From the NCBI GenBank assembly GCA_024636505.1, contig JAGXGY010000027.1, forward strand, positions 1 through 64,000: a stretch of 64,000 nt of DNA, given 5' to 3'. Position 1 is the first letter of the stretch; every line of letters starts with the position of its first letter. Shown here piece by piece: positions 15,800-30,244 of this stretch. The notes under the pieces were generated by a model. The model was not told the origin of the DNA and did not search any database. It saw only the letters and a list, made by a program, of their open reading frames with translations. The stretch is from Methylobacter sp. GTDB taxonomy: Bacteria; Pseudomonadota; Gammaproteobacteria; Methylococcales; Methylomonadaceae. Both the position numbers and the translations under genes were made by a program.

Positions 15800-15800
15800 C

Positions 15801-17426
15801 TTAACGACCTTCACGTACATCAAACCGCCCGGCTAAATCCGCCGCAGCAAACGCCACACCCATCACTTTAGTCATTTTATCGGACGGCAAATGACCATAG
15901 CCATTAACCAGCGCCGCTTGGAACGCTTCCAGGCTATCAGCATCATTTAGCATATTTTGAATGCTATCCAGCCAAGCTTTTAGCGGATCAGCAGCATTAG
16001 CGGCCAGAAGCGCCGTATGCGCATCTACAGAATCATCCAACTGGGCAGGATTATCCACCCGCCCAGGTTGGCTCTGGGTAGCGGCAGCTATGTATTCTGA
16101 GGTCTTCGTAATTACACCGGCCAACCCAGTTGCAGCCTGACCGTCTTGCGCCGGAGCATTAGCACTACGCGATGGCTGCAAAATAGGCTCATCATCTTCA
16201 GGCTCCGGTATTTTTAGTTTTAAATTGACATAACGCAATGGAATCCTGGCTCCTGCATTAGCCAACTTGGGCAACGCATCGGCATACAACTGTAAATCGT
16301 CCGGCTCCTGAGTGTCGCTAACCCAGCTCGGACAACGATTATCCGCAAACAGCCCGTTCAGCATCGCCATCGGATAAACCAGATAACTACTCAGCGTTTG
16401 ATCCAACTGCGTCGCGTCATCGTCCCTAATATCCAGCCTGACCTCATTATGCACATCGCCCAGCGAGCGATTGCCGTTAGCGCCGGTCGAACTGGTCAGC
16501 GTACCGCCCAAAATAGCCTTGGACTGGCTGGCCTCGCACCAATTGACCATCGCCATAAACGAATCGGCATTGCCCAAGGCCATCACCTGCTGCAACTCCA
16601 GCTGCATCGTGTCGGGAATAATCCCCGCCGCATTGTGGCCGATACTCAGCACCGTGCGCAGCAGATCGCGCTTTTCTTTATCAGAGGCCGTCGGCGAATA
16701 TTTGCCCACCCGAATCGGCAAACCGTAAATTTCCAAAAACTCGGCCAGATCCCGCACCGAGTAATTTTTGTACAAATACGGCCAAGCCAGCGCCCGAAAC
16801 AAACCGGATCTGGCGATATACCCAGCCCTGGACTTATGAAAATGCGGAATCCAGCCGAACGGTTGCAGCGGTACTCCATATACCGTACCGCTATCGCGTA
16901 AATGCAAGGTATTGCGTTGATCCGGCGGCGTAATAAACCAGGTCGGCGAACGGTGCTCGACCTGATTAGGAAACCACAACCCCGCCGCAGTACGCCCCCA
17001 GCCCAGCTCGATACACGAATAGCCGTGACCGATCGCATCCAGCGCATCCATACGCAAATTGCCGATATCGAGCTCATCGGTAATCAGATCCTGCAATAGT
17101 TTAGTGTGCTTTTTTTCAGTTGCCGAAGCATCGCGCGGCGGCCGTAGCTCCCAGTCCAGTTTTTTGACCGCCATTTCCCGCTTGCTCAACTCAGCGCCGA
17201 TATGCGTATCTTTCTCGCGCATATCCATAAACAGCTCCGCTTGGGCCTGCAAATTACCCTGCTCAGCTTCAATAAACAGCGAGGCCAGACGTGCCGGAGT
17301 GAGTCCTTTAGACGGATGCTCGGCAAATTCGCGGTGCAATAGGGCCGACGTCGGCGAATCGGTCTGCCGCGCTTTAACGGCGGCCGGTGTCAGCTTCGAT
17401 ACCAGCCAATCTGTGATTAAACTCAT
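15801..17426 (-). CDS. Portal protein (DUF935, Mu gp29-like)
   Basis: A 541-residue portal protein. The family blocks KREMAVKKLDWELRPPRDA, GYSCIELGW, GLFRALAWPYLYKNYSVRD and KAILGGTLTSSTGANGNRSL are present. It forms the dodecameric DNA-entry vertex and docks the terminase encoded just upstream. It overlaps the terminase stop codon by one base. Confidence 0.92.
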   Translation of the reverse strand: MSLITDWLVSKLTPAAVKARQTDSPTSALLHREFAEHPSKGLTPARLASLFIEAEQGNLQAQAELFMDMREKDTHIGAELSKREMAVKKLDWELRPPRDASATEKKHTKLLQDLITDELDIGNLRMDALDAIGHGYSCIELGWGRTAAGLWFPNQVEHRSPTWFITPPDQRNTLHLRDSGTVYGVPLQPFGWIPHFHKSRAGYIARSGLFRALAWPYLYKNYSVRDLAEFLEIYGLPIRVGKYSPTASDKEKRDLLRTVLSIGHNAAGIIPDTMQLELQQVMALGNADSFMAMVNWCEASQSKAILGGTLTSSTGANGNRSLGDVHNEVRLDIRDDDATQLDQTLSSYLVYPMAMLNGLFADNRCPSWVSDTQEPDDLQLYADALPKLANAGARIPLRYVNLKLKIPEPEDDEPILQPSRSANAPAQDGQAATGLAGVITKTSEYIAAATQSQPGRVDNPAQLDDSVDAHTALLAANAADPLKAWLDSIQNMLNDADSLEAFQAALVNGYGHLPSDKMTKVMGVAFAAADLAGRFDVREGR

Positions 17427-18865
17427 TACCAGGCCCCTTTTTGGCTAATATTCAAATCGTCTTTTCCCCAATACCTATCGTCTTTGCTGGGTATGGGCGT
17501 GTATTCAATCATCGACGCAGGCGTAGACGCCGCATGCACCCCCAGCGCCAGCGCCCAGAACCTGTCCGCGTGGCCGTTTTCAGACCGTTCCGCCGTAAAC
17601 CTGACGTTCCCCGCAGCGGTCGCAACCTTAGTCACAGCGCGCAAATCAGCCCGGATAGCCGGTTTATAGGGGATGCGTATCTTCTTATCCTCCATGCGCC
17701 CGCGCACCGGATAAGCCAGTTCTTCTTTAATCCGATTGGTAAACGTCACCAGCTCCACGCGGTATTCACCGAACGCCCGCTGCGCATCATCGCCCCAACC
17801 GATGCCCAGACCGGTATAGTCAACACAGGTACGCTCCATCAGCGCCATCACCGGCCACAACACCTTTTCCTGATCCGGCTTGGACATGTTTTGCAGCTCG
17901 ATAATCTTGCGTGTGTACAGCACGTCGCCCAGCAGCTCAAACACCCACAGCACCGTTAAATCCTTTTTGCGGCCAATATCCAGCCCGGCGAACAGTTTCG
18001 CTCCGCGTCGCTTGGATTCTTCCAGATCGACTTCCCAAACCTCATGGCTGCCGTACTCGCAACCGGCAATCAGGTCGTATTCCAGGAACGCCGAACCATC
18101 ATCGGCCGGATCGCACATGTATTCCTGGCGGAAACTTTCCTCATCGGCGCAACCGGACTTGATAAAATCGAAATACGCCGCCTCATCCATAGCATGTACT
18201 TCATGCTCAGCAGGGAGTGACTTTTGCAGCTTGAATAAAAAGCCTTGGTCGAGCGCATCCTGCAAGGTCATCCGGTGCAGACTGATATTCTTGGGGTTGC
18301 CGTTCTCGCGGACTTCGCGGATCAGCTGATTGAAAAAATTATGACTGCCCCGATGGGTGGAAATCAGCTCCATAGAGCCGCCCCAGGTGATACCCGGATA
18401 GGCGATGCTCCACAACTTGCGCGGATCGGGATGCAATGCAAACTCGTCCAGGATACGCCCGCCGCGCTTACCAGCCTGCGCGTCCGGATTACTGGACATT
18501 GAATGGATGCGGCGGCCAGAGGCAAACTCCAGCACATAGGCCGTTAATTTGGTCTTCTCATCAATGACCCGCTCGCCCAGATCGGCGGCGGCGATGCTCA
18601 TCACCTTCGCCCACATCTTGCAGTCTTCAATAAACAGCCGCGCTTGCAGATCGTCGCGGCTTGAGACCCATTGATCCCATTTACCGCCCGCCATCGAAGT
18701 ACGCTCGTCAGCAGCATAAGCCGTAGACCAGCTGATACCGATTTGGCGGGCCTTTTCCATCAGTTTTAGCCGGGAGTTGTCCTTAATCCAGAGCTCCTGG
18801 CCAGCCAGGAAGATGCCGTCAGGATTAGGCGGGATAACCTTGGCGTTGCCGCGCTTAACACTCAT
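17426..18865 (-). CDS. Terminase large subunit (Mu gp28-like)
   Basis: A 479-residue packaging motor. The ATPase part has a Walker A-like EKARQIGISWS (37-47) and Walker B RILDEF (136-141). The nuclease part starts FAGLDIGRKKDLTVLW with the first acidic metal ligand, then DYTGLGIGWGDDA. It overlaps the small terminase gene by 4 bp. Confidence 0.92.
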   Translation of the reverse strand: MSVKRGNAKVIPPNPDGIFLAGQELWIKDNSRLKLMEKARQIGISWSTAYAADERTSMAGGKWDQWVSSRDDLQARLFIEDCKMWAKVMSIAAADLGERVIDEKTKLTAYVLEFASGRRIHSMSSNPDAQAGKRGGRILDEFALHPDPRKLWSIAYPGITWGGSMELISTHRGSHNFFNQLIREVRENGNPKNISLHRMTLQDALDQGFLFKLQKSLPAEHEVHAMDEAAYFDFIKSGCADEESFRQEYMCDPADDGSAFLEYDLIAGCEYGSHEVWEVDLEESKRRGAKLFAGLDIGRKKDLTVLWVFELLGDVLYTRKIIELQNMSKPDQEKVLWPVMALMERTCVDYTGLGIGWGDDAQRAFGEYRVELVTFTNRIKEELAYPVRGRMEDKKIRIPYKPAIRADLRAVTKVATAAGNVRFTAERSENGHADRFWALALGVHAASTPASMIEYTPIPSKDDRYWGKDDLNISQKGAW

Positions 18866-19419
18866 GATACAGCTATACCCAGAGCTTCGCGGATGCGCAA
18901 CACGCCTTGCTCGGATACACCTTCGGCTTTGGCCGCAGTCGTAGCCAAGCGCGCCGACTCTTCACGCTCCAGCTTGCGTATCTCCGCCTCAAACTCTCGC
19001 TTCCACTTGGCGCTGCCAATCGCCGACCGGTTTAAATCCGCAATAGCCCGCACCAGCTTTGGGATAGCCGCCATTCTGTCCGCTATCTCCAGTCCGTCAA
19101 CCTCCTCAAACATGTCCATGATCTGATCCATGGCTACCATTTCGTTGGCTTCCATCAGGGCCGCTTTTTCATCGTCCGACGCACCGCGCAAGGCCTTGGC
19201 AATCTCCATGCGCTCACGGGCGCGAGCCATGGATTTTTCCATCTTGGCTTGCAAGTTCGAGCCATGCCGCCACACCGCCGTTTTGCTGATTTGATAGCCC
19301 TGCTCCTGAAGCCAGCTTGTCAGACCGTCATAATCGCTAAATGCCTGATCGACCAAACGGGCATTTAATTGCTCGACTACCGCAGCGGGCAATAAGGCAA
19401 TAGCCGGACGCGGTGCCAT
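18862..19419 (-). CDS. Terminase small subunit (DUF3486, Mu gp27-like)
   Basis: A 185-residue protein starting MAPRPAIALLPAAVVEQLNARL, with the SDYDGLTSWLQEQGYQISKT DNA-binding-like region, then a long helical segment. The start at 19419 overlaps the preceding stop (TAATG) and fits the family. A longer in-frame extension would run far into the upstream gene. Confidence 0.85.
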   Translation of the reverse strand: MAPRPAIALLPAAVVEQLNARLVDQAFSDYDGLTSWLQEQGYQISKTAVWRHGSNLQAKMEKSMARARERMEIAKALRGASDDEKAALMEANEMVAMDQIMDMFEEVDGLEIADRMAAIPKLVRAIADLNRSAIGSAKWKREFEAEIRKLEREESARLATTAAKAEGVSEQGVLRIREALGIAVS

Positions 19420-19715
19420 TAAATAGGCTCCGGCCGCGCAACGCCGGGAACCACTGACAGCCCCTGCTGAACATCGCCGCCTCGGGCGGTCAGCGTAGCC
19501 AGCCAAATGCCGTCCGGCTGCTTAGCAAGTACCAGCCCTTGCTCGTGCAGCCATTGCAGATCGGCGCGCACCAGGTCGGTAGAGGCGGCCTGGCCGCGAC
19601 TGGACAAGGCCTTTTTTAAATCAACCTCATGCAACGTATAGGCATTCGCGGCATTCAACAGGCTCAATAGTGCCAGGCGGCGGTTGGCGACAATCAGATC
19701 AGAGTAACTGCTCAT
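19419..19715 (-). CDS. Winged-helix-like phage protein (Mu gp26-like)
   Basis: A 98-residue protein with a helix-rich N-terminus (NRRLALLSLLNAANAYTLHE) and a winged-helix-like DLQWLHEQGLV strand region. It ends VVPGVARPEPI. The motif PGxARP recurs at the end of the paralogue at 20061. DNA-binding function is inferred from the layout. Confidence 0.7.
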   Translation of the reverse strand: MSSYSDLIVANRRLALLSLLNAANAYTLHEVDLKKALSSRGQAASTDLVRADLQWLHEQGLVLAKQPDGIWLATLTARGGDVQQGLSVVPGVARPEPI

Positions 19716-19722
19716 GGGATAC

Positions 19723-20064
19723 CTACTTATTATTCATTAGATGATGATGGATCGTATTCAGCGTATTTCTGATCGCATGGAATTCGCCTTTCATTTCCTT
19801 GATCTCGCCGTTTAGCGTATCCAGCCGCTGATGCACGCGCTTGAAGTCATTATGATCGGGAGCATGTTTTACGTCCTGTTCCAGCCGCGTCAAGCGTTCC
19901 AATTGCCCATCCAGGCGATCATCAATGCTGTTCTCCAGAGTGGTAATGGTCGCACTGGTGATGCGCTGACGATTATTCAGCCAGCTCATAATGCCTACAG
20001 CAGCAATCAGCAGCGTCTGAATCACGTCAAACCAGAATTTGGCTAATTCATATCCCGCGCTCAT
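19723..20064 (-). CDS. DUF2730 protein (Mu gp25-like)
   Basis: A 113-residue protein with one N-terminal membrane segment (FWFDVIQTLLIAAVGIMSWL) and a coiled-coil C-terminus. It belongs to a conserved set between lysis and terminase genes in Mu-like phages. Function unknown. Confidence 0.8.
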   Translation of the reverse strand: MSAGYELAKFWFDVIQTLLIAAVGIMSWLNNRQRITSATITTLENSIDDRLDGQLERLTRLEQDVKHAPDHNDFKRVHQRLDTLNGEIKEMKGEFHAIRNTLNTIHHHLMNNK

Positions 20065-20384
20065 GCCGACAACGCCTGAACCGGGGACTTGATAGGCCGG
20101 GCAATACCCGGCAAAACATCCGTCGCATAATAAACAAAGCGCATGCCCTCATTGCGCATCATGCAAAACCAAGGGCCGGTAGACGACATATCCAGCAGAA
20201 TTAAACCGCCGCGCACCAGGTATTCCATGTTGCTGCGCACCTCATCTAAATCTGCATCCGGGTACTGAGATTTAATAACCGGCACGAGGGCGTTTTCATG
20301 GGTGCCGGACGGACAGGCGCTGCTGATCGTCAGCAGAATCAGCCAGCGGATAGTTTCGTTGCGTTGCGCTGAGCTTATCGTCAT
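20061..20384 (-). CDS. Winged-helix-like phage protein, paralogue of the 19419 gene
   Basis: A 107-residue protein with the pattern helix, ENALVPVIKSQYPDADLDEVRSNMEYLVRGGLI, and a PGIARPIKS tail matching PGVARPEPI of the gene at 19419. It overlaps both neighbours by 4 bp. Probable regulator or structural accessory, unproven. Confidence 0.65.
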   Translation of the reverse strand: MTISSAQRNETIRWLILLTISSACPSGTHENALVPVIKSQYPDADLDEVRSNMEYLVRGGLILLDMSSTGPWFCMMRNEGMRFVYYATDVLPGIARPIKSPVQALSA

Positions 20385-20608
20385 TGCTTTTTCCTGATTT
20401 CATGTGTGAACTGGCAGTCTATGCAGCGGACGCAATTCGGTAATGCGCCCAGCCGGTCAGACGGTATATCAATACCGCAATCCAGACATTCGACAATGCC
20501 GTCGATGACCCATTGAGGCGGTAGGGCGTGATCGATCAGATGCTGGCGGATAGCCAGATCATTAGTAAATTGCGCCGTAGCGTTAGCGCGGTCGATATCG
20601 TCAGTCAT
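20381..20608 (-). CDS. TraR/DksA-type C4 zinc-finger protein
   Basis: A 75-residue protein with the DksA-type four-cysteine finger (CLDCG...CVRCIDCQ) in the C-terminal half. Phage and plasmid TraR proteins bind RNA polymerase at the secondary channel and shift promoter choice. Its place in the late operon is typical of Mu-like phages. Confidence 0.85.
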   Translation of the reverse strand: MTDDIDRANATAQFTNDLAIRQHLIDHALPPQWVIDGIVECLDCGIDIPSDRLGALPNCVRCIDCQFTHEIRKKQ

Positions 20609-20936
20609 CCGGAGAATCCCTTATCTGATGCGTACCGGTACCGCTCCCGGCGGTACTGGCACTTCCGCTATTTCTGGCAGTCGTTGATTTAATAATGACT
20701 TCGAGCTCTTCCGCATAGTGCCGCAGCAGCCGGTTGCGTGTAGCCAGCCGCTCATAAACAGCATCACTAACGCAGATCAGGTCGGTTGACGGAATGGACG
20801 GCAGTACCGGTCGCGCCGGCAGCGGCAGCGCTTGCAGCATGATCCGTACCGGTTCCGGCGTCGTGCAGCCGGTCATCGCCAGACCAAGCGTTAGCAAAAT
20901 CAGAGCGCTCAGCCAGATGTGTCGGGTTTGTAGCAT
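20601..20936 (-). CDS. Outer-membrane spanin lipoprotein (Rz1-like)
   Basis: A 111-residue protein with a signal peptide and lipobox LAMTGC (lipidated C24). A proline-rich stretch LPLPARPVLPSIPS follows, as in Rz1. It overlaps the inner-membrane partner gene by 170 bp in another frame. The pair fuses inner and outer membranes at lysis. The C-terminal part after about residue 90 is low complexity. Confidence 0.75.
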   Translation of the reverse strand: MLQTRHIWLSALILLTLGLAMTGCTTPEPVRIMLQALPLPARPVLPSIPSTDLICVSDAVYERLATRNRLLRHYAEELEVIIKSTTARNSGSASTAGSGTGTHQIRDSPDD

Positions 20937-21144
20937 CGAGTGTTTCCTTGCGGTGGGTTTCGTGGATAGTTTTCAGCGCCGTATCCAGCTGCTGGCGATT
21001 GTTATTGACAGACTCCGCAGCCTCGGCGCGCTGCTGTTGCAACGCGGCATGGTGTTGCTCGGCCTTGGCCTTGCCACGGTAGCCCAGCGCCACGATAATG
21101 GCAGCCAGCAATACAATCAGCCCGATACCCGTCAAAATCATCAT
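20767..21144 (-). CDS. Inner-membrane spanin (Rz-like)
   Basis: A 125-residue protein with one N-terminal membrane anchor (ILTGIGLIVLLAAIIVALGY), then a helical, glutamine-rich periplasmic domain. The start overlaps the holin-like gene by 4 bp; the 3' half encodes the o-spanin start in another frame. This matches two-component spanin architecture. Confidence 0.75.
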   Translation of the reverse strand: MMILTGIGLIVLLAAIIVALGYRGKAKAEQHHAALQQQRAEAAESVNNNRQQLDTALKTIHETHRKETLDATNPTHLAERSDFANAWSGDDRLHDAGTGTDHAASAAAAGATGTAVHSVNRPDLR

Positions 21145-21413
21145 GACTCGCCTCGCGAGCAGCGAAAGCCGATCTTGTCGGTCGTCGCTACCGTTAAATA
21201 ACCATTAACAAAGCCGCCGATAATCGCAATGCCGGTCACCAACGTCAGTACATCATCAGCGGTTAAACCCAGCATCGACAGCAAGGGCGACATCACCCCA
21301 GCAATAATCACCAAAGCATTAACCGCCTGCTGCCGGTTCTTCCAGATTGCCGGATTAGCCAGCGATTCGCCTGCCATCAACACCCGGCATAACGATAAAA
21401 TAAAAGCCATCAT
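21141..21413 (-). CDS. Holin-like small membrane protein
   Basis: A 90-residue protein with two or three hydrophobic segments (residues 1-15, 30-50 and 55-75) and a charged tail. It lies between endolysin and spanins. The start at 21413 sits one base after the amidase stop. A holin role is inferred from position and topology. Confidence 0.65.
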   Translation of the reverse strand: MMAFILSLCRVLMAGESLANPAIWKNRQQAVNALVIIAGVMSPLLSMLGLTADDVLTLVTGIAIIGGFVNGYLTVATTDKIGFRCSRGES

Positions 21414-21414
21414 G

Positions 21415-21939
21415 CTAATGACTCCCCGGCAAAATATGCCCGACCAAAGGAGCCATGCCGCCCGCCAACCACGCCGCCACATCAAAGCCGGGGCACGTTT
21501 TTAGCCACTCCTGCGGGTCAACGCGGCCATTGCGGTTGGTGTCGGGCGAGGTATCGCGATGCCCTATTACCGTGATGCCGGGGTAGCGTTTCTTGAAAAT
21601 CTCAACTTGAGTTTTGAGGGTCGCCCATTGTTCCGGACTGAAAGCGTCGGTGCCGACCATACAGATGCCGATGCCGTTAGTGTTATAGCCGATGCAGTGT
21701 GCTCCGGTTTCCAGCTCATAGCGGCCGCATTCAGCGACACCGTTAACGCGATTGACGAAGTGATAGCCGATGTGTTTCAGCGTGGGTGCATGGTGAGGAA
21801 ACAGCGACATATTGCGAGTAAAACCGCGTTGTTTATGCCAACTGTCAATGTCCGCCGCCGTGAACGGCTTGCCGTTGGGCGTGGCGGCGCAATGGATGAC
21901 CAAAAATTTGATGTGCGCAGCAGTGCGGCGATTGCTCAT
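21415..21939 (-). CDS. Endolysin, N-acetylmuramoyl-L-alanine amidase (T7 lysozyme class)
   Basis: A 174-residue amidase_2 protein with zinc-ligand-type residues H16 (LVIHCAAT), H127 (IGHRDTSPD) and C149 (KTCPGFDV). It cleaves the amide link between muramic acid and the stem peptide. It is the first gene of the minus-strand late unit. The upstream 125 bp hold the TTCCGAA palindrome found also at other late starts. Confidence 0.9.
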   Translation of the reverse strand: MSNRRTAAHIKFLVIHCAATPNGKPFTAADIDSWHKQRGFTRNMSLFPHHAPTLKHIGYHFVNRVNGVAECGRYELETGAHCIGYNTNGIGICMVGTDAFSPEQWATLKTQVEIFKKRYPGITVIGHRDTSPDTNRNGRVDPQEWLKTCPGFDVAAWLAGGMAPLVGHILPGSH

Positions 21940-21993
21940 AAAGCCCCCTTTTGAATAGTGGGGCTAGTTTATGGAGTTAGGGGTTTAGCGGGC

Positions 21994-22012
21994 ATCCGAA
22001 GCAGTTCGGAAG
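21994..22012 (-). promoter_or_regulatory. TTCCGAA palindrome upstream of the lysis operon
   Basis: The inverted repeat TCCGAA-gcag-TTCGGA lies 55 bp before the amidase start. On the minus strand its flanks (ACCCCTC before, GATGCCCGC after) resemble ACCCC and GATACCCGC around the plus-strand copy at 32215. It could be the site of the late activator, a terminator loop or a mobile palindrome. Confidence 0.45.
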
Positions 22013-22065
22013 AGGGGTTTTAATGGAGAGAGGGAGTTGGGGCGGATGACTCCGCCCCGGATAGA

Positions 22066-22266
22066 TTAGCCGGCTACAAACGGCATATCCTTGTCGGTCG
22101 GCAATTGGCTTTGCACTGCAACCAGTAACGCCGACAGGCCGCGCGGGTCAATCTGTACGATAGTTTTATCGGGAATCGCATCAACCAGATCGCTGACCAG
22201 TTGCAGCGTATAGCGCGCGTGGTAAATGCATTGTTCTTGTTCTTCGCTGAGTTGGAAGTGGCTCAT
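22066..22266 (-). CDS. Small phage protein of unknown function
   Basis: A 66-residue acidic, helical protein (MSHFQLSEEQEQCIYHARY...). The ATGA overlap with the antirepressor gene shows they are one unit. No family recognised. Confidence 0.6.
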   Translation of the reverse strand: MSHFQLSEEQEQCIYHARYTLQLVSDLVDAIPDKTIVQIDPRGLSALLVAVQSQLPTDKDMPFVAG

Positions 22267-22937
22267 ACTGTGCCGCCTTGGTTACGGATAGAGCGACGAA
22301 CGATACCGGCATTGCGATAAAACCAGATCGATAGCGTATGCACTGTCCAGCCCTGATCGTGCAACTCAGTGATTTCCTTTTCTTCGGCCGCGGCAATCGG
22401 GCGCTGGGCACGAATAGCACGCTCTAATTGCGCGCGATTTTCCGCATGAATCAGTTTATGCCCATCAATCCTAAAATTTAGCTGCTTGTTTTGCTGGATC
22501 AGATGATCGGTATAAGCGTTGGCTTTTTCCTTGAAAACCTCATGCGCGTATTTTTGCGAGTCGATCAGTTGGCGTTGGGTGTCGAGCAGTTCTTGGGCGG
22601 TGGATTGCGGGGCGAGATAGCTGCCGGTTTTGTGGATAGCGGGGAGGACTTCTGAGGTTAGCCATTTTTTAACGGTTTTGGCTTCGGGTTTGGTGCTTCT
22701 GAGGACTGATGACCATAATCCAGACTCGTTGATGACATTGACGCCGCGATTTCCAAAACCGGCGATTTGCAGGTTTTGAACTTCATCTTCATCTAGCTTT
22801 TTGGTCATTTCAAACGCGTCGCTGTATTCGAGTATTTCAGCAACTTCTTTGGCGATAAACCAAGATGCGCCTTGCTCGTCGGTAATGACAGTTAATTGAT
22901 GGGATTGGAATTGGAAAGTTTGTAATGCTGTATTCAT
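22263..22937 (-). CDS. BRO-N-type phage antirepressor
   Basis: A 224-residue protein. The N-terminus is a BRO-N domain (LTVITDEQGASWFIAKEVAEIL, then SGLWSSVLRSTKPEAKTVKKWL). The C-terminal half is helical and ends in a helix-turn-helix-like AEEKEITELHDQGWTVHTLS segment. Antirepressors inactivate phage repressors and trigger induction. The start at 22937 has a CGGAG site; a longer frame to 23204 is only the translated leader. It is controlled by the C4-like RNA leader described separately. Confidence 0.8.
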   Translation of the reverse strand: MNTALQTFQFQSHQLTVITDEQGASWFIAKEVAEILEYSDAFEMTKKLDEDEVQNLQIAGFGNRGVNVINESGLWSSVLRSTKPEAKTVKKWLTSEVLPAIHKTGSYLAPQSTAQELLDTQRQLIDSQKYAHEVFKEKANAYTDHLIQQNKQLNFRIDGHKLIHAENRAQLERAIRAQRPIAAAEEKEITELHDQGWTVHTLSIWFYRNAGIVRRSIRNQGGTV

Positions 22938-22944
22938 GTTGATC

Positions 22945-23027
22945 TCCGTTGAAATATTAGATAATCCGGCAACATGACGCCAATCATGGTGCCGGACTGG
23001 ACAGGTTGGCGTACCAGGTTCAACGGA
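22945..23027 (-). promoter_or_regulatory. Antirepressor leader: C4 target segment and SD-proximal copy
   Basis: The segment read as CCGTTGAACCTGGTACGCC on the RNA (plus coordinates about 23005-23025) is complementary to the C4-like RNA element carrying GGCGTCTCGGTATTTCAACGG (described in pieces). A second copy of the C4 motifs, GATTGGCGTC and TATTTCAACGGAG, lies next to the antirepressor start and includes the GGAG ribosome site. The middle segment can therefore pair with either copy, hiding the ribosome site or not. Confidence 0.6.
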
Positions 23028-23093
23028 CCCGGCCAGCCTTTTTAGGGGCTGCCTGCCCAGCCCGACATAATGAAGAGCTGGAGCGATGCACAC

Positions 23094-23169
23094 AAAAAAA
23101 CCGCTTGAAGCGGCCATGTGCCGTTGAAATACCGAGACGCCAATCCCGTACGCTGGATTTTGCCAGCGC
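23094..23169 (-). ncRNA. C4-type antisense RNA (immunity RNA), copy 1
   Basis: Predicted RNA of about 76 nt, from a start 7 bp after the TAATCT box to the T-run after hairpin CCGC-TTGAA-GCGG (plus-strand reading). The 77-nt length of P1 c4, the terminator, the GCTGGCAAAATCCAGC hairpin and the complementarity to the downstream leader all fit the P1/P7 C4 system, in which the RNA blocks antirepressor expression. The promoter and terminator are seen directly; the family assignment is inferred. Confidence 0.7.
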
Positions 23170-23175
23170 ACAATT

Positions 23176-23204
23176 AGATTAGCCCTCGGGGTTGTTTTTG
23201 TCAA
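23176..23204 (-). promoter_or_regulatory. Sigma-70 promoter of C4 RNA and antirepressor, copy 1
   Basis: Perfect -35 TTGACA (23204-23199), 17-bp spacer, TAATCT -10 (23181-23176). The same arrangement, with the spacer also ending in GGGC before TAATCT, is found at 33944 in front of the other antirepressor. Confidence 0.8.
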
Positions 23205-23223
23205 ATTTCGAGATTACCCACTG

Positions 23224-23328
23224 CTACTCAAACAGCCAGTATAAAAAATAGCAAAACGCAATAAAGAGAGCTGCATAAGACATCAAAAAAACAGATATGA
23301 TGGTGTTGGTCTTGGGGAATAATGCCAT
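23224..23328 (-). CDS. 34-residue single-pass membrane protein
   Basis: MALFPKTNTIISVFLMSY... to ...WLFE, with one hydrophobic helix over residues 9-32. AAGAGG lies 8 bases before the ATG, a good ribosome site. It sits alone between mor and the C4 promoter. Function unknown; membrane toxins and superinfection-exclusion peptides of this size exist, but nothing specific links it to either. Confidence 0.55.
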   Translation of the reverse strand: MALFPKTNTIISVFLMSYAALFIAFCYFLYWLFE

Positions 23329-23370
23329 GTTAATTACCTCTTAGTTATGCCTAAATCGGCGGTTAAAAAA

Positions 23371-23769
23371 TCAATCATCAATATCAAACATATCCACCTG
23401 CCCGACATCCTCGTCCATACTATTGCAGATGGTCAGCACCTGGCGTTCGGTCAAACCGAACTTCCTGGCGACGTTAAACAGCGGCTCACGCTCTTTGCGC
23501 AACCGCCTGATCTCGGTATTGCGTAGCGCTCTAAAGGCCTTGGCGGCTTTGGGGATCTGGATAATCTCCCCGGCGAAGTTCTCGCAAAAGGCCGCGGCGG
23601 CTCTTGGACCCAGCACTTGACTCAGCTGATGCAGGGCATCAACCTGTTGCGGTACGCACACATGCCCGCCGCCGTAATGCTGCAGCAAGTCCATCGCGGT
23701 CTTGTCGCCGCAGTATTCCGCGATTTCCAGGAGTTTCGGGGGCAGCAAATGCCGGGGTAAGGGGTGCAT
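23371..23769 (-). CDS. mor: Mor-family transcription activator of middle/late genes
   Basis: A 132-residue protein: dimerisation-like N-terminus, IIQIPKAAKAFRALRNTEIRRLRK, and a C-terminal helix-turn-helix (NVARKFGLTERQVLTICNSM). In Mu, Mor and its relative C activate the middle and late promoters. Here it precedes the antirepressor, lysis and head genes in the same direction. Confidence 0.88.
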   Translation of the reverse strand: MHPLPRHLLPPKLLEIAEYCGDKTAMDLLQHYGGGHVCVPQQVDALHQLSQVLGPRAAAAFCENFAGEIIQIPKAAKAFRALRNTEIRRLRKEREPLFNVARKFGLTERQVLTICNSMDEDVGQVDMFDIDD

Positions 23770-23770
23770 A

Positions 23771-24250
23771 TTACTGAGCGACCGGGCCGTTAACGCGTTT
23801 TTGCCATTTCTTCAATGCCTCGATGACGCCGCTCGCTTGTGCCGTATCCAGCCATTGCAAGGCTTCGACGCCGGTCAAACGCTTGACGTAGTTAGCCAGA
23901 CTGGCCTCGGACGGATCGCGCACAATGCCCTGGTTATGCATCTCCAGCCACAAGCTCCTGATTTTTTTGGATTGCCCGTCGTCGGCCAGCGCCCTGGATG
24001 ACTTAGCTTGAGCCGGTTTAACCTTAAAGCCCAATCCCTTCATGACCTCGACCGCCTGGCACAGTTGGCCGATAGACATTGTCGAGGCCGAGTATTTGCC
24101 GTTTTTCAGGGTAGCGCCCTGCATCGGCAGCCAGATGCCGTAGTAAAACTCGTCATCCCAGCCCAGCTGATCTTTGCCGACTTGCAGCAGAGTATAGTAG
24201 CGTTTGCGGTTATCTGTCTCGGAGCGCGGTTGGTAATTTCTACGATTCAT
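23771..24250 (-). CDS. gemA: GemA-like regulatory protein (DUF1018, Mu gp16)
   Basis: A 159-residue protein starting MNRRNYQPRSETDNRKRYYTLL..., then TLLQVGKDQLGWDDEFYYGIW, and a C-terminal KKIRSLWLEMHNQGIVRDPSE block, characteristic of GemA. In Mu it modulates host gene expression and DNA topology. It ends directly before mor. Confidence 0.85.
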   Translation of the reverse strand: MNRRNYQPRSETDNRKRYYTLLQVGKDQLGWDDEFYYGIWLPMQGATLKNGKYSASTMSIGQLCQAVEVMKGLGFKVKPAQAKSSRALADDGQSKKIRSLWLEMHNQGIVRDPSEASLANYVKRLTGVEALQWLDTAQASGVIEALKKWQKRVNGPVAQ

Positions 24251-24815
24251 TGGATACTCTCTTAGCCTTGCCCTGCCAGCCTGACGGCGGGCCGGATTTT
24301 TGTTTAGGTTCTGCAGCTTTCTTGGCTACTGCTTTCGTGACAACCGCACCGACCGGTTGCATGCCCATCTGTGCGCCGGATTGCCCACGGTTGCGCTGCG
24401 CCTCGATCGCTTTGGCCTCAGTCGCAGCCAGTTGCTTTTCAACACGCCCGACCATGATCGACAGCAAATAACCGTTGGATTTCAGCGGCAGCACCAGCGC
24501 CGCGGGTTTATTGCTGACCAGCTTCATCATTTCGCCCTCCCAAGCCTGCATGGGCATTGCGTGGGTAATACCGCCCCGTACCACCGTGCCGCTTTTAATC
24601 ATCGGCATCAGCTCTTGGGTCAGCGCCAGCCGCCGCGACCAGCGCAGCGACTGTATTTTCGGCTTAAACAGCTCCAGATAGCGGAGCAGAGCGCCGATCA
24701 TGCTCGGCGGTATGCTTTGAATCAGCTCCGTCCACTCATTGCCTGCGGCCAGCTCCATGCCTTGGATAATGTCGATAGACGTGCCGCAGTAAGGGCAATC
24801 GAAACTGCAGCTCAT
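24240..24815 (-). CDS. Phage early protein with N-terminal CxxC finger
   Basis: A 191-residue protein beginning MSCSFDCPYCGTSIDI, so a possible small zinc or disulfide motif. The middle region (PPSMIGALLRYLELFKPK...) is helical and the C-terminus is basic and low complexity. I do not recognise a named family; position suggests an early replication or transposition accessory. Confidence 0.6.
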   Translation of the reverse strand: MSCSFDCPYCGTSIDIIQGMELAAGNEWTELIQSIPPSMIGALLRYLELFKPKIQSLRWSRRLALTQELMPMIKSGTVVRGGITHAMPMQAWEGEMMKLVSNKPAALVLPLKSNGYLLSIMVGRVEKQLAATEAKAIEAQRNRGQSGAQMGMQPVGAVVTKAVAKKAAEPKQKSGPPSGWQGKAKRVSNES

Positions 24816-24961
24816 CGTTGATAACCTAGACCTGTAGCGGGTGCGCTACCATCAAAGCCCGAGCCTGGCGGCAACGCCGTTGCTGCTTCGTTGGCGTTAT
24901 TAATGGAGGCAAGTCTTAGGCATTTTTTAATTTTGCTGAGTATTTTGCTTGGCTCGCTCAT
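24812..24961 (-). pseudogene. N-terminal fragment of a DUF2786-like protein
   Basis: 49 residues. The first 30, MSEPSKILSKIKKCLRLASI..., through NNANEAATAL, match the N-terminus of DUF2786 proteins (ILxKIRKCLxLAxxxNxxEAxxAL). The frame then runs into an unrelated Pro-Gly-Ser-rich tail. The rest of the domain is absent. Probably a truncated gene, though the short product may still be made. Confidence 0.5.
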
Positions 24962-24962
24962 A

Positions 24963-25580
24963 TCAAACCCCCGCAATATCCAGCGCCAACTGGTCGAACT
25001 TGCCGTCGCTATTGCGCTCGTAAATCCGCAAATAGGCTTTAGTCCCCACCACTTGCATAGAGTCGCGCAACGCCTGCATAGCCAATTGCCATTGCTCATC
25101 CTGTATATCGTATTGCAACAGCGTATAAATGCGCCCCAGGCTGATTTTGCCTTCCTGGTCGGTTTGAAAGGCATGCTCAACCAAGGCGATAATCTCTACC
25201 CGGCTGCCCTCCGCCCAGCGATGAATACAGTCATCAACCAGTTTCTTTGCGGACTGCAAACGCTCATCGAATATTTTGATTTCCGCTTGGGACACCTTGA
25301 TTTGATAACGTCCGTCGAATGAACACAGCGTGATATTGCCCTTGATGCCGCCCAGCTTGACCTTGTATTTCTCTGCTGACAATTCGGAAAACGCCTGTAT
25401 TTCGCCGAAGGTATCCGCTTTAAATCCGCCCAGCAGCTCGCGCAAATCGGCGACCTTGCCGATAATTTCCATCACCAACTCATTACGGAGCTTATCGATC
25501 TCGCTGACCAGTTGCAGCGGCACCAAGTGGCCTAGGCTGTTTTTTAAATAGCCTGTAGGTATGACTTCTTGTTGAGACAT
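24963..25580 (-). CDS. DUF3164 phage protein
   Basis: A 205-residue protein with GYLKNSLGHLVPLQLVSEIDKLRNELV at the N-terminus and FDGRYQIKVSQAEI in the centre, the blocks of DUF3164, a protein of the early region of Mu-like phages. Molecular role unknown. Confidence 0.8.
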   Translation of the reverse strand: MSQQEVIPTGYLKNSLGHLVPLQLVSEIDKLRNELVMEIIGKVADLRELLGGFKADTFGEIQAFSELSAEKYKVKLGGIKGNITLCSFDGRYQIKVSQAEIKIFDERLQSAKKLVDDCIHRWAEGSRVEIIALVEHAFQTDQEGKISLGRIYTLLQYDIQDEQWQLAMQALRDSMQVVGTKAYLRIYERNSDGKFDQLALDIAGV

Positions 25581-25610
25581 TGTTTTTTTTCCTGTTGTTT
25601 AAAAAAAATG

Positions 25611-25682
25611 TAGGTTGGGCAGCGTCTTTCTGCCCAACGTTTATTGGGTAATGTTGGGCAGAACAGTTTGCCCAACTTACAC
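25611..25682. repeat. REP-type GTAGGTTGGGC repeat inside the phage early operon
   Basis: TGTAGGTTGGGCAG ... CTGCCCAACG, then TGTTGGGCAGAAC ... GCCCAACTTACA: a double inverted repeat. The same family lies at 31961-32038. It occupies the gap between DUF3164 and the gene at 25738. Confidence 0.75.
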
Positions 25683-25737
25683 CGTCACCAAAACCGCATC
25701 GACAGTGACACGGCGATCAGCACCACCGCCAACACCA

Positions 25738-26085
25738 TCAGCCCGTGCATTTGCGCGCCGCCCGGCGATAACCTTGCCCGGGCCAGCGGATCACCTTGGA
25801 GGCGGCCGGTGCTCGCATCGGCTTATGCCAAACGACTTTGACCCCATCGACCACCGCCGCATAGGATTTGTACATCTTGCCGCCTTCCCAGCCTTGGCCG
25901 GTATAGGCCGATGGCAACAGCCGGGTCGCGGCATTAGGTTGGACATGGATCGCCGGTGTCCGTCCAGGCTGAGCATTGATGATAACCAGCCCCAAAAAAT
26001 GCAGTTTGTTAACCACCCGGCTGATGTGTTCGACGGCTTCAGGGTCGTGATGGGTACCGATGAGTTCATAGCTTTTCATTGTCAT
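25738..26085 (-). CDS. Phage early protein of unknown function
   Basis: A 115-residue protein, start MTMKSYELIGTHHDPEAVEHI, with a VHQPNAATRLLP-like central part (actual HVQPNAATRLLP). It starts directly behind the B gene stop. The C-terminus is basic. No family recognised. Confidence 0.55.
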   Translation of the reverse strand: MTMKSYELIGTHHDPEAVEHISRVVNKLHFLGLVIINAQPGRTPAIHVQPNAATRLLPSAYTGQGWEGGKMYKSYAAVVDGVKVVWHKPMRAPAASKVIRWPGQGYRRAARKCTG

Positions 26086-27240
26086 CTACGCCTCCAGAAT
26101 TAAATCATTGGAAATCTTAGGAAACCCCAGCTGCGCCGCCTGATTCATCGCCGCCGTGACCAGATTATTGATCATCAACGGGTACATCAAACTGACCGAC
26201 TCGCGGGTTTTACCGGCCTTGGCGAAGATCAACCGGCCGCGGACGCCATCCAGTGCGTCTTTTTCAAACAGCTCATCAATGCCTTTGCCGACCCGCTCGA
26301 ATTTGAATTTCAGGTATTGATCCAGTTGCGCATCCAGCGGCGGCAGCTCGACCACTTCGCAGCGCTGCACCACTTCCCGCACCTCGGGCGAGCGCTCCGA
26401 CAGCTTGATTTTCAGCTCGGTCTGACCGATCAGCACGATGCTCAGCAGCTTTTTAAAGCCGTCCTCCAGCTCGAAGAAGCGTTTTAAATGCTTGAGGGTG
26501 GCAATGCTCAGCCCGTGCGCCTCTTCGATGATCAAACAATGGTTAAACCCGGCGCGGCGGCTGTCTTTCAATATCCTGTGCAGTTGGCGGCTCTTGGCCT
26601 CCATGGACACGCGGGGTTTTTCCTGCGGGGCCAGGGTCAGGATAATACTGTCGGCAATCGCGCTGGCTTTCAGCGTTTTGCCGCGCACGTCGTTGTCTTC
26701 CATGCCCAATACATACGGCTCGATAATCAGGATCGGCGCGTCCTCGCGGGCGATGCGGTCGTGCAGGTCGCGGCGCAGCGTGGACTTGCCGGAACCGCTT
26801 TCGCCGATCACCGCAATAAAACCGCCGTGCATGGCCGTTGCCCACAGGTATTCCCGCACCCGGCGGATGTCCGGCGAGGTGAACACGTCCGCCGCCTCGT
26901 TGATGTCGTTGCTGAACGGGTCGCGGAAAAGACTAAAGTGCTGTCTCGCCGCTTGTGACAGCGCGGTTTTACGTAGTAACATATCGATACCTTCTTGGTT
27001 GGGGGTGATGGTTGCAGGCGTTGAACCCGCAACCGCTGCAAACATTGCCGCGTCAACGGCAATATCTCGGACGACCAGTGCTTCGGTAATCTTCCCCATC
27101 AGGGTGGTTTTATCCGGGCTGGTCGGCCATTTTTCATGGTTCAACAATTGCGCTACCAAAGCGGGCGACAAGCCGATGTCTCGGGCCAGTTGCGCCTGGC
27201 TGATGCCGTTGCTTAGCAGTCGATTTTTTAGGGCCAGCAT
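26086..27240 (-). CDS. B: Transposition ATPase B (MuB-like)
   Basis: A 384-residue AAA ATPase. The N-terminal helix-turn-helix (about 13-34, ISQAQLARDIGLSPALVAQLLN, given here as its first and last residues I13 to N34) is as in MuB. Walker A GESGSGKST spans 146-154 and Walker B CLIIEEAH spans 235-242. It would select target DNA and stimulate transposase A. It lies downstream of A in the usual order A, small gene, B. Confidence 0.9.
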   Translation of the reverse strand: MLALKNRLLSNGISQAQLARDIGLSPALVAQLLNHEKWPTSPDKTTLMGKITEALVVRDIAVDAAMFAAVAGSTPATITPNQEGIDMLLRKTALSQAARQHFSLFRDPFSNDINEAADVFTSPDIRRVREYLWATAMHGGFIAVIGESGSGKSTLRRDLHDRIAREDAPILIIEPYVLGMEDNDVRGKTLKASAIADSIILTLAPQEKPRVSMEAKSRQLHRILKDSRRAGFNHCLIIEEAHGLSIATLKHLKRFFELEDGFKKLLSIVLIGQTELKIKLSERSPEVREVVQRCEVVELPPLDAQLDQYLKFKFERVGKGIDELFEKDALDGVRGRLIFAKAGKTRESVSLMYPLMINNLVTAAMNQAAQLGFPKISNDLILEA

Positions 27241-27242
27241 GA

Positions 27243-27455
27243 TTAGTGCCTGGCTGCCGATGCCATGGGCATGACATGCGCATCAAAACTACGCCCGGCT
27301 AAAAAATCCTGCAATGCCGCCTCGATGACGCCACCCAGCACTTTTGCGGGGGTGTTATCGTCCGTTTCGCTGGGTCGGGCAAGACGCATTACCTGCACGC
27401 TGATGCGTGATGTTGCGGTGTCTTCGTCTTCGATAATGATGATTGTTTTAGCCAT
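27243..27455 (-). CDS. Small phage protein between transposase A and B
   Basis: A 70-residue protein beginning MAKTIIIIEDEDTATSRISVQV, probably a beta-strand-rich N-terminus. Gap of 2 bp to B. Function unknown. Confidence 0.6.
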   Translation of the reverse strand: MAKTIIIIEDEDTATSRISVQVMRLARPSETDDNTPAKVLGGVIEAALQDFLAGRSFDAHVMPMASAARH

Positions 27456-27488
27456 TGGCGTTACCTCTGTTGGTTGGTGTTATTGTTA

Positions 27489-29252
27489 TTAAATCGCTCT
27501 TAATTGCGCGCGCCCGGTCGCGGCTCTACCCACTGCCAGATCCGCCAGCACCTGCTCCAAATCCTCCTCGGACGCCCCTTCGGGAAACCGCGACTGCACA
27601 TCCGCCAGCAACTCCGGCCGGTAATCGCTACCCAAGCGCCCCAGCAGCCATTTAGCCGCCTGCACCGGGCTCAACTTCAACAGCTCAACAGTCGGGGCAT
27701 TAACAGCCAAAGCCGTGCCGCGCTTGGGCATAAACGTTGCCAGCGCCTGTTTGGAGGCCAGCAGCGGGTCGATCTTGCCGTCAAACGGCACATAATGTTT
27801 GTTGCCGCGCTTCTTCTCGGTTGCCGCCAGGGTGTCGGTACCGGCGGCCAGTTGATGGACGCGCTTGCGGTTGGTATCGGCTATGGTGTCCGGCTTGGCC
27901 TTATGTTCCTCGCCGATTACCGCCGCGCTCTCCCTGAAGCCCAGTGCGTTGGCTTTATCCTCATACAGCGCAATATGCTGCTCCTGGCCGTCTTCGCCCC
28001 AGATCACAGCCATCGCGGTATCGACCATAAACGGATGCCAATGCACGTACACGTCGCCTTTCACATACACGCCGGGCACATGATCGACTTTCCAGGTCCG
28101 GTTTTTAAACGAGATGGTTAAGTCGCCGCGTACCTGGCGTTTGATCGGCTCATCGGTTGCCAAACTCAGCAACACCTCGGCGCTGGGCGTAATGCGCAAT
28201 TGCTCGGCAGTGATGGTCAGCCACACCGCAAAGCGGGTGCGTTTGGTCCGGCTGTGCTCTTTGGTGGCGTTCCACCACAGTTGATAGGTTTCCGCCAGCG
28301 CATTCAGCCCGTTAAAGTCGGTCGGGCGTTTTTTCATGAAGCGCAGCGCCTGCTCAAATGAGGTTTCCACCAAATGGTTGCCCTTTTCGACGCTGCCCTT
28401 GGCCCGTGGATTGCGCCGCTTGTTGACGATCAGCTCAATGCCCATCCTAGTGCAAAACCGCCGCACCAGACCGCCGCTAGTCGCGCCCGGATCGACCATC
28501 ACGATCATCGGCGCACCGTGGAACGGATCGTTACCGGACTTTGGCGCCATCGCCCAGGCCAAAAACCGCACCGTATGCTCGCCTGATTCGGCATGCGGGT
28601 AATAGCGGTACCGGATTACCCCGCTGGCATGGTCGCTGACGACGTAACGAATCACCCGAAACTGCTCAATCGCTTTCAGATTTTGCGGCTTGTTTTTGTA
28701 ATGCACCGCGTCGTCCAGCTCCACCAGTTCCGCGCCGCCGTCCGGCAGGTAATAAATCACGCACACCGAGCCGTCCACCTGCCACACATGATTAGGGTGC
28801 AGCGATTGCAGATTGGTGTGCGGCGTCGCCTGGCGCAATTGCTCGGGGTGCAAGGTGTGGACCCGCAGGCCGTTGGCAATCGCCGAGTCCGACAGCGGCA
28901 CCAGTTCCCCGGTCGCCGCGTCCAGCGTAGCGGCGGTAATTAGCCCGTTATCTCGTAGCACTTGAATCGCCTCCTTAACCGGCGTGATCTTGCGATTGTT
29001 CTTGCGGTAGCCTTCCAGGCAATAGGCCGACACCACATCGGCATCGGCGGCGCTCAGCGCCACTACCCCGGCATCGGAACGCCTTTTGCGCGGCTTGCCG
29101 ACCGCGACTTTTTTTAAATGCCGCAACAAGGTGCTTCGGTTCTTGCCCAGCTCCTGGCAGGCGCGCCGGTAGATCGATTCCTTCTCGCCGTGGCCAGCCG
29201 CCGCCACGGCGTCGGCAATGCCCACCAGTTGTTGTATGTAGGCGGGATGCAT
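27489..29252 (-). CDS. A: Mu-type DDE transposase (transposase A)
   Basis: A 587-residue transposase. The N-terminal helix-turn-helix is GKNRSTLLRHLKKV. The catalytic core carries D160 (VWQVDGSV), D254 (IVMVDPGATS) and E289 (KGSVEKGNH). The Mu-type C-terminal beta-barrel follows (PIKRQVRGDLTISFKNRTW). It integrates and replicates the phage. It reads away from the plus-strand structural genes, which is opposite to the canonical Mu layout relative to those genes. Confidence 0.93.
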   Translation of the reverse strand: MHPAYIQQLVGIADAVAAAGHGEKESIYRRACQELGKNRSTLLRHLKKVAVGKPRKRRSDAGVVALSAADADVVSAYCLEGYRKNNRKITPVKEAIQVLRDNGLITAATLDAATGELVPLSDSAIANGLRVHTLHPEQLRQATPHTNLQSLHPNHVWQVDGSVCVIYYLPDGGAELVELDDAVHYKNKPQNLKAIEQFRVIRYVVSDHASGVIRYRYYPHAESGEHTVRFLAWAMAPKSGNDPFHGAPMIVMVDPGATSGGLVRRFCTRMGIELIVNKRRNPRAKGSVEKGNHLVETSFEQALRFMKKRPTDFNGLNALAETYQLWWNATKEHSRTKRTRFAVWLTITAEQLRITPSAEVLLSLATDEPIKRQVRGDLTISFKNRTWKVDHVPGVYVKGDVYVHWHPFMVDTAMAVIWGEDGQEQHIALYEDKANALGFRESAAVIGEEHKAKPDTIADTNRKRVHQLAAGTDTLAATEKKRGNKHYVPFDGKIDPLLASKQALATFMPKRGTALAVNAPTVELLKLSPVQAAKWLLGRLGSDYRPELLADVQSRFPEGASEEDLEQVLADLAVGRAATGRAQLRAI

Positions 29253-29254
29253 GG

Positions 29255-30244
29255 TTATGCCTCGTCTTGCTGTTCTTGCGTCGCCATAAACGCTTCAAAC
29301 GCCTTAGCCTCGGCCCTGCCGGGCTCGTCTGCCGCCTGCTCGGCGTCAAGGATTGGCACAAAGCCCATATTGTCGGCGACGCCGTAAGCCGCAGTGATGA
29401 TCAAGCCGACTGCCTGCCGCGCAGCCAGCTCGATATGCTTGGGCGGCTGGCCTTCGAATACCCGGTACAGCTTGGCGATCTCGCTGTTCAGCGTGGCGGT
29501 GACTTTTACCGTCAGTTCGCGGCTATATTCCTGCAAGCGCGAGAGCTGGAATTCGCCGGGCATCTGCACTTCGTCGATAGTTGTTCGCTTTTCCGCCTCC
29601 AATACCTGGATGCGGTTGGTTTTTTTCGTTAGGGATTCGTTGTATTCGCTGATGACCGTGTCTTTCGCAATCAAATCCCCGGTTAATAATTCGACCTGTT
29701 TGGCTGAGGCTTCCTTTTCGCGGAAATGTTTGGCGGCCAGCTGCTGCATCAGGTCAAGTGCTTTATCCAGGTCTTCGGACTCAATCGCCTGAGCGATAAT
29801 TAGGCGGTCGTCAGATGGCAGGGCTTTTAAGGCGTTATAGTCGCGTTGGCGAAAACCCAAGCGTTCTGCCTGCTCATACAGATTCGAGCCCAGCAGATTG
29901 TGGTTGCTCATCAGCTCCATAGTTCTTCTGTAAGATTTTCCAAGGAATGCGGTGCAGAACTCTGGAAAATCTGCGACCTGTCGCAAATTTCCAGCGTCGT
30001 CTTTGTAGGGCAATCCTTTGTATTGCTTGCTTTCACGGATATTTATTGCTGTTTCGGCGATCAATTTATCTGCGACGGTCGCAAAAAAGTCGGCAGCCTC
30101 AATTCGGCCCAACGATTTGAGTACATCAACGCTGGCTATTACCGCTGCATTAGCAATAGACATCTGATTGCCAGCCTCAACGAGTTGCTGCACATTGTTT
30201 TCCTGCGCCGGTGTTAGCGCTGTGCCAGTAGATTTATCGGTCAT
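29255..30244 (-). CDS. Phage early protein with coiled coil, upstream of transposase
   Basis: A 329-residue protein. It has an N-terminal helical part, a middle segment with DFPEFCTAFLGKSYRRTMEL, and a coiled coil around 190-225 (EKEASAKQVELLTGD...). The last 30 residues are acidic. Mu-like phages of the BcepMu type carry comparable proteins before transposase; I cannot name its function. Confidence 0.6.
   Translation of the reverse strand: MTDKSTGTALTPAQENNVQQLVEAGNQMSIANAAVIASVDVLKSLGRIEAADFFATVADKLIAETAINIRESKQYKGLPYKDDAGNLRQVADFPEFCTAFLGKSYRRTMELMSNHNLLGSNLYEQAERLGFRQRDYNALKALPSDDRLIIAQAIESEDLDKALDLMQQLAAKHFREKEASAKQVELLTGDLIAKDTVISEYNESLTKKTNRIQVLEAEKRTTIDEVQMPGEFQLSRLQEYSRELTVKVTATLNSEIAKLYRVFEGQPPKHIELAARQAVGLIITAAYGVADNMGFVPILDAEQAADEPGRAEAKAFEAFMATQEQQDEA

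Follow-up and report, generated by a model that had tools for sequence, protein, structure and literature searches.

Within a 64,000-nt stretch of Methylobacter DNA (here called the window), the region in front of a phage gene is best explained overall as an antisense switch of the C4 type that controls this gene, an antirepressor, combined with an IsrK-like decoy RNA (probability, roughly 85%). On the minus strand, this region (i.e., unit 1) carries, in order, a promoter, a 76-nt terminated RNA, a C4 RNA, a leader, and a Bro-N gene. Unit 1 is well supported as a further member of the C4 system of phages P1 and P7, which is doubled in the window. Judging from its target sites, the C4 RNA very probably represses translation of the Bro-N antirepressor, and the evidence for the IsrK-like RNA acting as a decoy for C4 is evenly balanced. 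The point of interest is that IsrK and the a1b1 element of C4 systems share one identity, with the decoy test following from it.

The promoter of unit 1 (23176 to 23204, minus strand; TTGACA at 23199 to 23204, a 17-nt spacer, and TAATCT at 23176 to 23181) can be read directly in the sequence, as an earlier note on this DNA had described it. The -35 box is perfect and the -10 box agrees with TATAAT at three of six positions; a consensus promoter scan of unit 1 made no call, the -10 box being weak. The RNA of about 76 nt that the note had placed behind this promoter, ending in a hairpin with seven U, was also recovered (23169 to 23094, minus strand). It matches the Rfam isrK model (RF01394; 58.9 bits; cut-off, 50), its 3' end consists of GGCCGCTTCAAGCGG followed by seven T, and a terminator scan calls an intrinsic terminator at 23094 to 23115 (7-pair stem plus T run). 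Two short sites on this IsrK-like RNA, namely, a1 (UUGGCGU; 23137 to 23143) and b1 (UUCAACGG; 23121 to 23128), are perfect complements, over 7 and 8 bp, of the sites a' and b' of the C4 RNA that follows.

The segment that the earlier note had seen to be complementary to part of the 76-nt RNA is the C4 RNA itself; the Rfam C4 model (RF01695), which the note had suggested, matches it above the curated cut-off (53.5 versus 45 bits) at 23072 to 22985. Its predicted fold (-47.4 kcal/mol; z = -4.9) leaves the a' linker (ACGCCAA; 23006 to 23012), which is complementary to both a1 and a2, unpaired and places b' (UCCGUUGAA; 23019 to 23027) in the loop region of the third hairpin (P3), from where it pairs with b1 over 8 bp and with b2 over 9 bp. 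The leader holds the second copies of the motifs that had been noticed near the ribosome site, i.e., a2 (UUGGCGU; 22977 to 22983; 7-bp complement of a') and b2 (UUCAACGGA; 22945 to 22953; 9-bp complement of b'), the latter overlapping the Shine-Dalgarno sequence (22944 to 22947). All four pairings (a'-a1, b'-b1, a'-a2, and b'-b2) are perfect in unit 1, and the a and b sites are spaced 8 nt apart in the IsrK-like RNA versus 23 nt in the leader. The gene behind the leader (22263 to 22937, minus strand; 224 aa) matches Pfam Bro-N (E = 2e-18) and the PHROGs anti-repressor Ant (E = 2.6e-42). Its start is most likely the ATG at 22937 (22935 to 22937), since the TTG start of the 313-aa open reading frame proposed previously (22263 to 23204) lies within the -35 box. 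Thus, the claim of a C4-type switch before a BRO-N antirepressor stands with respect to the Rfam match and the leader pairing, while the parts of the switch had been swapped.

In the predicted folds of both C4 RNAs of the window, a long helix closes the structure and encloses two hairpins, and the a' linker is unpaired (z = -4.9 and -4.2 for units 1 and 2, respectively). The IsrK-like RNA of unit 1 folds only modestly better than its shuffles (z = -1.7), and its lowest-energy fold on its own contains the terminator and no competing structure. In cofolds of C4 with the IsrK-like RNA or with the leader, C4 stayed closed and formed no contacts at a or b; the method used is unable to form such pseudoknots. 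By eye, the loop of hairpin I in the IsrK-like RNAs (23150 to 23169 in the window, for instance) recurs as GCAAAATC or GCACAATC across many units and has a near form in P1; pairing with C4 does not explain this loop. Despite the pairing of a1 and b1 with C4, the c4-a1b1 model (RF03163) has no match in the window at its gathering threshold; the a1b1 element of the window therefore works like c4-a1b1 but is not classed as a member.

A second unit lies on the plus strand (unit 2; 33944 to 34199), ahead of a KilA-N domain protein (34197 to 34997; 266 aa; Pfam KilA-N, E = 4.5e-20). It consists of a promoter of the form TTGACA-17-TAATCT (33944 to 33972), a terminated RNA (33979 to 34057) with a1 (TCTAACC; 34004 to 34010) and b1 (CAAAAGG; 34021 to 34027), a C4 RNA (34068 to 34151; RF01695, 66.7 bits) with b' (UCCUUUUG; 34109 to 34116) and a' (around 34121 to 34129), and the leader sites a2 (UUCUAAC; 34152 to 34158) and b2 (CAAAAGGA; 34182 to 34189; at the Shine-Dalgarno sequence). 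The terminated RNA, recognized by its terminator and pairing, scores 30.0 bits against isrK, i.e., below the gathering score of 50, and is only isrK-like; the Rfam matches in the 64-kb window at gathering threshold number three (isrK and the C4 RNAs at 53.5 and 66.7 bits). The pairing cores of unit 2 are perfect, with one G-U pair at a2, and unit 1 shares neither its a' nor its b'. Two further C4 units lie outside the window, bringing the genome to four; by eye, TTGACA-17-TAATCT precedes three of them and TTGACA-17-TATTCT precedes the fourth.

Unit 1 belongs to a Mu-like gene set, in which it is flanked by a Mor-type activator and an amidase; the evidence for this set comprises a PHROGs transposase, Mor, Portal_Mu, Phage_Mu_F, and a match to the Phage_tail_S virion morphogenesis family, which we take to be the Mu G homologue. 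Two such gene sets run in opposite directions (13391 to 31933, minus strand; 32244 to 64000, plus strand); both contain F-type and Phage_tail_S genes, their F stretches being 71 to 72% alike, and protease, capsid, and gp36 genes form an additional set at 55 to 58 kb. These sets may represent nested, rearranged, or joined prophages. The host is most likely a member of the Methylococcales, as its DNA polymerase III alpha, encoded next to the prophage, shares 79% identity with that of a Methylococcales MAG and 74% with that of Methylomonas. The earlier note had suggested that RNA-based immunity might operate in place of, or alongside, a Mu-type repressor; the open reading frames scanned (part of those of the prophage) include a Rha protein, a regulator of the MarR/IclR type, and a MuB-like ATPase with a helix-turn-helix, and no match named CI or Mu c was found among them. 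The gene for the Rha-type phage regulator (31059 to 31592, minus strand) has no Rfam C4 match in front of it. A 58,183-base IMG/VR record (G369) carries both C4 units in the spacing and orientation of the window; if colinear, its first base would correspond to window position 13391.

A class-wide search identified C4 in 24 of 369 genomes. From a table of about 58 matches, 57 were used (one below the cut-off was left out; four are from this genome) and, together with P1, P7, and Salmonella Gifsy-1, gave 60 units, of which ten (P1 and nine others) were dropped at ≥90% C4 likeness, leaving 50 non-redundant units. A complementarity score without tight spacing limits was tried first and proved too permissive (shuffles reached the real value in 47 of 100 cases for the unit 2 upstream site, in 3 of 100 for the unit 1 upstream site, and in none for either leader); therefore, spacing was limited and cross-locus controls were used. 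In the resulting test (k = 6), the a and b sites must each form six contiguous Watson-Crick pairs, and their order and spacing must be correct. By this test, C4 matched its own upstream site in 45 of the 50 units and the upstream sites of other loci in 35 of 2,450 combinations (1.4%); the corresponding values for the leader were 34 of 50 and 22 of 2,450 (0.9%), leader pairing failing in 16 units. For all 60 units, the counts were 55 upstream and 41 for the leader. The relaxed setting (k = 5) gave 48/50 upstream (cross-locus, 15.4%) and 38/50 for the leader (9.4%), and the strict one (k = 7) gave 34/50 (0.16%) and 30/50 (0.12%). With a graded score, the own partner was strictly the best in 23 of 50 units upstream and in 27 of 50 for the leader; for units 1 and 2, the own upstream site ranked fifth and seventh, respectively, and the own leader ranked first in both. 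The own partner is often not at the top of this score because its limited maxima still admit chance helices, and our conclusions rest on the k = 6 count instead.

Predicted duplexes were stronger upstream than at the leader in 41 of the 50 units (mean, -33.2 versus -26.3; unit 1, -39.0 versus -28.0) and in 28 of the 36 units that remain without G274, G367, and G195; P7 shows a slight difference in the opposite direction. These energies count stem bases and were obtained with more windows tried upstream, and cross-locus pairs likewise score stronger there than at the leader (-25.1 versus -20.8). The stronger upstream duplex is thus partly background.

Relatives of the antirepressor were found on six viral contigs of a viral collection (100 to 56% identity); one of these contigs has the same element and two have the same leader, which left four distinct relatives (L066, L067, L068, and L070). 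In all four, both pairings occur in the same geometry (upstream gap, 7 to 10; leader gap, 20 to 22). Where unit 1 has ACGCCAA as its a', L067 has AGACCAA, matched by UUGGUCU at both a1 and a2, and L070 has AUGUCAA, matched by UUGACAU at both sites. The b' sites of these two relatives are altered too. Hence, a', a1, and a2 exhibit three-way covariation among the close viral relatives. Some of their helices contain G-U pairs, namely, b2 of the leader in L066 and L067, b1 in L067 and L070, and a2 in L068. In a cross table of six units, the own partner was the best or tied for the best in four of six upstream sites and five of six leaders. A search of the genome collection with the antirepressor matched 35 stretches, none of which was confirmed as a relative.

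All four C4 RNAs of this genome pass the k = 6 test with their own upstream and leader sites. One of 24 cross tests among them was positive (the unit 1 C4 with the leader of the unit on contig 3), and neither C4 of the window passes with the sites of the other unit. Another genome contains an array of four tandem C4 cassettes within 1.4 kb (G261:C9, L037; at 548 to 633, 903 to 988, 1501 to 1586, and 1855 to 1940), each with promoter-like boxes (by eye), a1b1, a terminator, C4, and a leader. Three cassettes share b' and the fourth has another, and every cassette has an a' of its own to which its a1 and a2 correspond, so that the array represents a set of separate specificities. Such different a'/b' combinations, both in this genome and in the array with its four a' and two b' sites, would be expected if the cassettes were aimed mainly at other phages, with C4 silencing the antirepressors of related phages that enter the cell and the locally encoded antirepressor acting on other prophages; a role in superinfection has also been proposed for Acinetobacter baumannii in the part of that study drawn on here (PMC5320573). 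However, each of the four C4 RNAs matches its own leader, and this alternative, which we regard as on the unlikely side, is compatible with the preferred explanation rather than exclusive of it.

The gene after C4, taken by rule as the first plausible open reading frame of at least 60 aa, was scanned with Pfam in 56 cases; Bro-N was found in four, AntA, Rha, and KilA-N in two each, and ORF6N in one, and most had no match. One of the 56 proteins matches Pfam SymE_toxin, so genes other than antirepressors may also be under C4 control.

A terminator-like hairpin lies within 110 nt before C4 in 43 of the 60 units under a strict rule, including P1 and P7, compared with 11% of shuffles and a single match in control stretches 300 to 410 nt downstream (about 59 units were long enough). 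In the 41 units that have this hairpin as well as a k = 6 upstream match, the median distance from the end of b1 to the stem is 6 nt; the a1b1 element stops short of the hairpin in 40 of them and reaches 1 nt into it in the other. Termination could therefore release a short RNA that carries both a1 and b1 in full.

The elements, both pairings, the covariation, and the terminator are seen in the sequence itself; transcription, processing, repression, the antirepressor activity, and the direction of the decoy effect enter the following scheme as predictions. A single promoter would give rise to two kinds of transcript. Those stopping at 23094 would be free IsrK-like RNA, and from those reading through, C4 RNA would be cut out by RNase P, as in P1, where the processed C4 measures about 77 nt. 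The a' and b' sites of C4 would then pair with a2 and b2 of the leader, and with b2 located at the ribosome site, Bro-N translation would be shut and, by analogy with P1, lysogeny would be kept. The IsrK-like RNA, which offers the same two sites in tighter spacing, may compete with the leader for C4 and serve as a built-in decoy that could lift the repression under strong promoter drive or frequent termination.

Close parallels to unit 1 are found in P1, P7, and Gifsy-1. The P1 record of immI (c4-icd-ant; RF01695) has the promoter, a1, b1, C4, a2, b2, and the gene in the same order, with a1 and b1 annotated as putative. As in unit 1, a terminator-like hairpin separates b1 from C4 in both P1 and P7, although no terminator is annotated in that stretch of the P1 record. 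In contrast to P1 and P7, unit 1 belongs to a Mu-like phage, has other a' and b' sites, and is followed directly by the Bro-N gene with no icd. The c4-a1b1 motif (RF03163), a name that also appears in the part of Weinberg 2010 that we cite, designates a1 and b1 as targets of C4 and matches P1, P7, and Gifsy-1. In the Gifsy-1 isrK-orf45-anrP region, as in unit 1, an isrK match (34316 to 34240) adjoins a C4 match (34214 to 34131), an antirepressor-like gene follows, and a1 (UUGGCGU) and a' (ACGCCAA) are identical to those of unit 1; the c4-a1b1 match overlaps isrK and ends before the terminator. The Gifsy-1 region differs from unit 1 in belonging to a lambdoid prophage, in its b' and its gene, and in having been published as a cis/trans mRNA switch.

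When the published Gifsy-1 transcript is numbered with the isrK start as position 1, ten checked positions are recovered (C18, G28, G31, AUG 107, AUG 119, G114, C159, C162, G173, and C175). On this numbering, G28 and G31 (isrK G28A/G31A) lie within a1 and C159 and C162 (orf45 C159U/C162U) lie within a' of C4; C18, G173, G114, and C175 lie outside both, and both start codons of orf45 are inside the C4 match. We infer from its reported size and place that STnc1160 is the Gifsy-1 C4. A text search of the IsrK/anrP paper for the terms "C4 RNA" and "RNase P" gave no match. In the results of that paper used here, IsrK in trans raised anrP translation from 3 to 4 units to several hundred and a1-mutant IsrK gave no rise; the a' mutations in orf45 derepressed anrP translation (484 and 926), and compensating double mutants lowered it to 224 and 327, respectively, short of the wild-type value of 4 (PMC4825925). 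The authors took this partial fall as support for a cis structure (PMC4825925). The incomplete return also fits a C4 system, because a2 would stay mismatched.

Two other results from the same portion of that work fit less well. The G28A and G31A mutations of isrK in cis raised basal anrP translation from 4 to 93 and 218, and co-expression of orf45 (STnc1160) made the growth arrest caused by IsrK more pronounced, not less (PMC4825925). The former result is the opposite of what a pure decoy would predict, and the latter, in which extra orf45 RNA strengthened the arrest, also speaks against one. The rise with cis a1 mutations is what would be predicted by attenuation of the kind described for phage P4, in which C4 acting on nascent a1b1 would promote termination at 23094, a1b1 would be the site of repression, and the short RNA would be a by-product. 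The P4 CI RNA, an antisense RNA in one transcript with two flanking target copies with which it pairs (seqA and seqC), resembles unit 1 in this arrangement, and the comparison has already been made for IsrK in the passages considered (PMC4825925). P4 CI differs from the C4 proposed for unit 1 in acting on transcription termination. The closeness of b1 to the terminator stem (median distance, 6 nt) would suit attenuation as well. However, b1 overlaps this stem in only one of 41 units, by 1 nt, and the lone RNA of the window already has the terminator in its lowest-energy fold, with no competing structure. Moreover, the activation in trans by wild-type IsrK and not by a1 mutants, as reported in the same results, requires a trans role (PMC4825925). 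We therefore consider attenuation unlikely.

It is very unlikely that a1b1 is a functionless relic of leader duplication, leaving only C4 and a2b2 of importance. The putative status of a1 and b1 in the P1 annotation would agree with such a relic, but pairing is kept more often upstream than in the leader (45 versus 34 of 50), and the upstream sites change in step with C4. The units of two genomes bear on the same point. The leader match is absent from all 13 of the units G274 b to j (L036, L042, L045, L049, L052, L056 to L058, and L060) and G367 c to f (L041, L043, L044, and L050), and 12 of them (all except G274f) keep the k = 6 upstream match, i.e., upstream pairing persists where leader pairing is lost. 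None of the ten G274 units passes the terminator rule, the nine (b to j) that lack the leader match among them, and the terminator is kept in G367 c to f. The C4 RNAs of these 13 units may be retargeted or decayed. The assignment made in the earlier note, in which the 76-nt terminated RNA was the C4 repressor pairing with the leader, is hardly tenable: its length is near 77 nt and it is placed just after the promoter, but it carries sense copies rather than complements of the leader motifs and matches isrK upstream of the real C4 that Rfam assigns at 23072 to 22985, so that the transcript ending at 23094, which the note took for C4, would be an IsrK-like RNA.

For A. baumannii, the sections consulted describe 21 similar Group 1 C4-like sRNAs in one genome, with an upstream Region 1 and processing at GGW; they give only a possible auxiliary function for Region 1 and do not describe pairing of these sRNAs with their own leaders (PMC5320573). 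C4 reads far above those of the upstream region, also reported there, speak against the preferred reading of unit 1, i.e., a C4 switch with an IsrK-like decoy (PMC5320573). The portion of a Xylella paper available to us tabulates C4 and isrK side by side, and the idea of IsrK as a decoy for C4 was not found in the titles or abstract openings of the IsrK and C4 papers listed by the searches made here.

We tentatively extend the decoy reading to the IsrK-type RNAs of gammaproteobacterial prophages in general, with slightly less than even confidence. These RNAs might be dedicated C4 decoys (i.e., anti-antisense RNAs made by early termination of the same transcript from which C4 and the antirepressor mRNA would otherwise arise), with the termination ratio setting the threshold of immunity; the Salmonella IsrK/orf45 pair would then be a C4 system in which STnc1160 is C4 and orf45 begins inside that C4.

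Our analysis points to a P1-type RNA immunity switch with two specificities in Mu-like prophage DNA from a methanotroph. Furthermore, it brings together IsrK and c4, which are given as separate entries in the relevant part of a 2025 review. If the decoy reading is true, the published genetics of Salmonella IsrK could be understood more simply, and it would become possible to test what a1 and b1, so far annotated as putative in P1, do.
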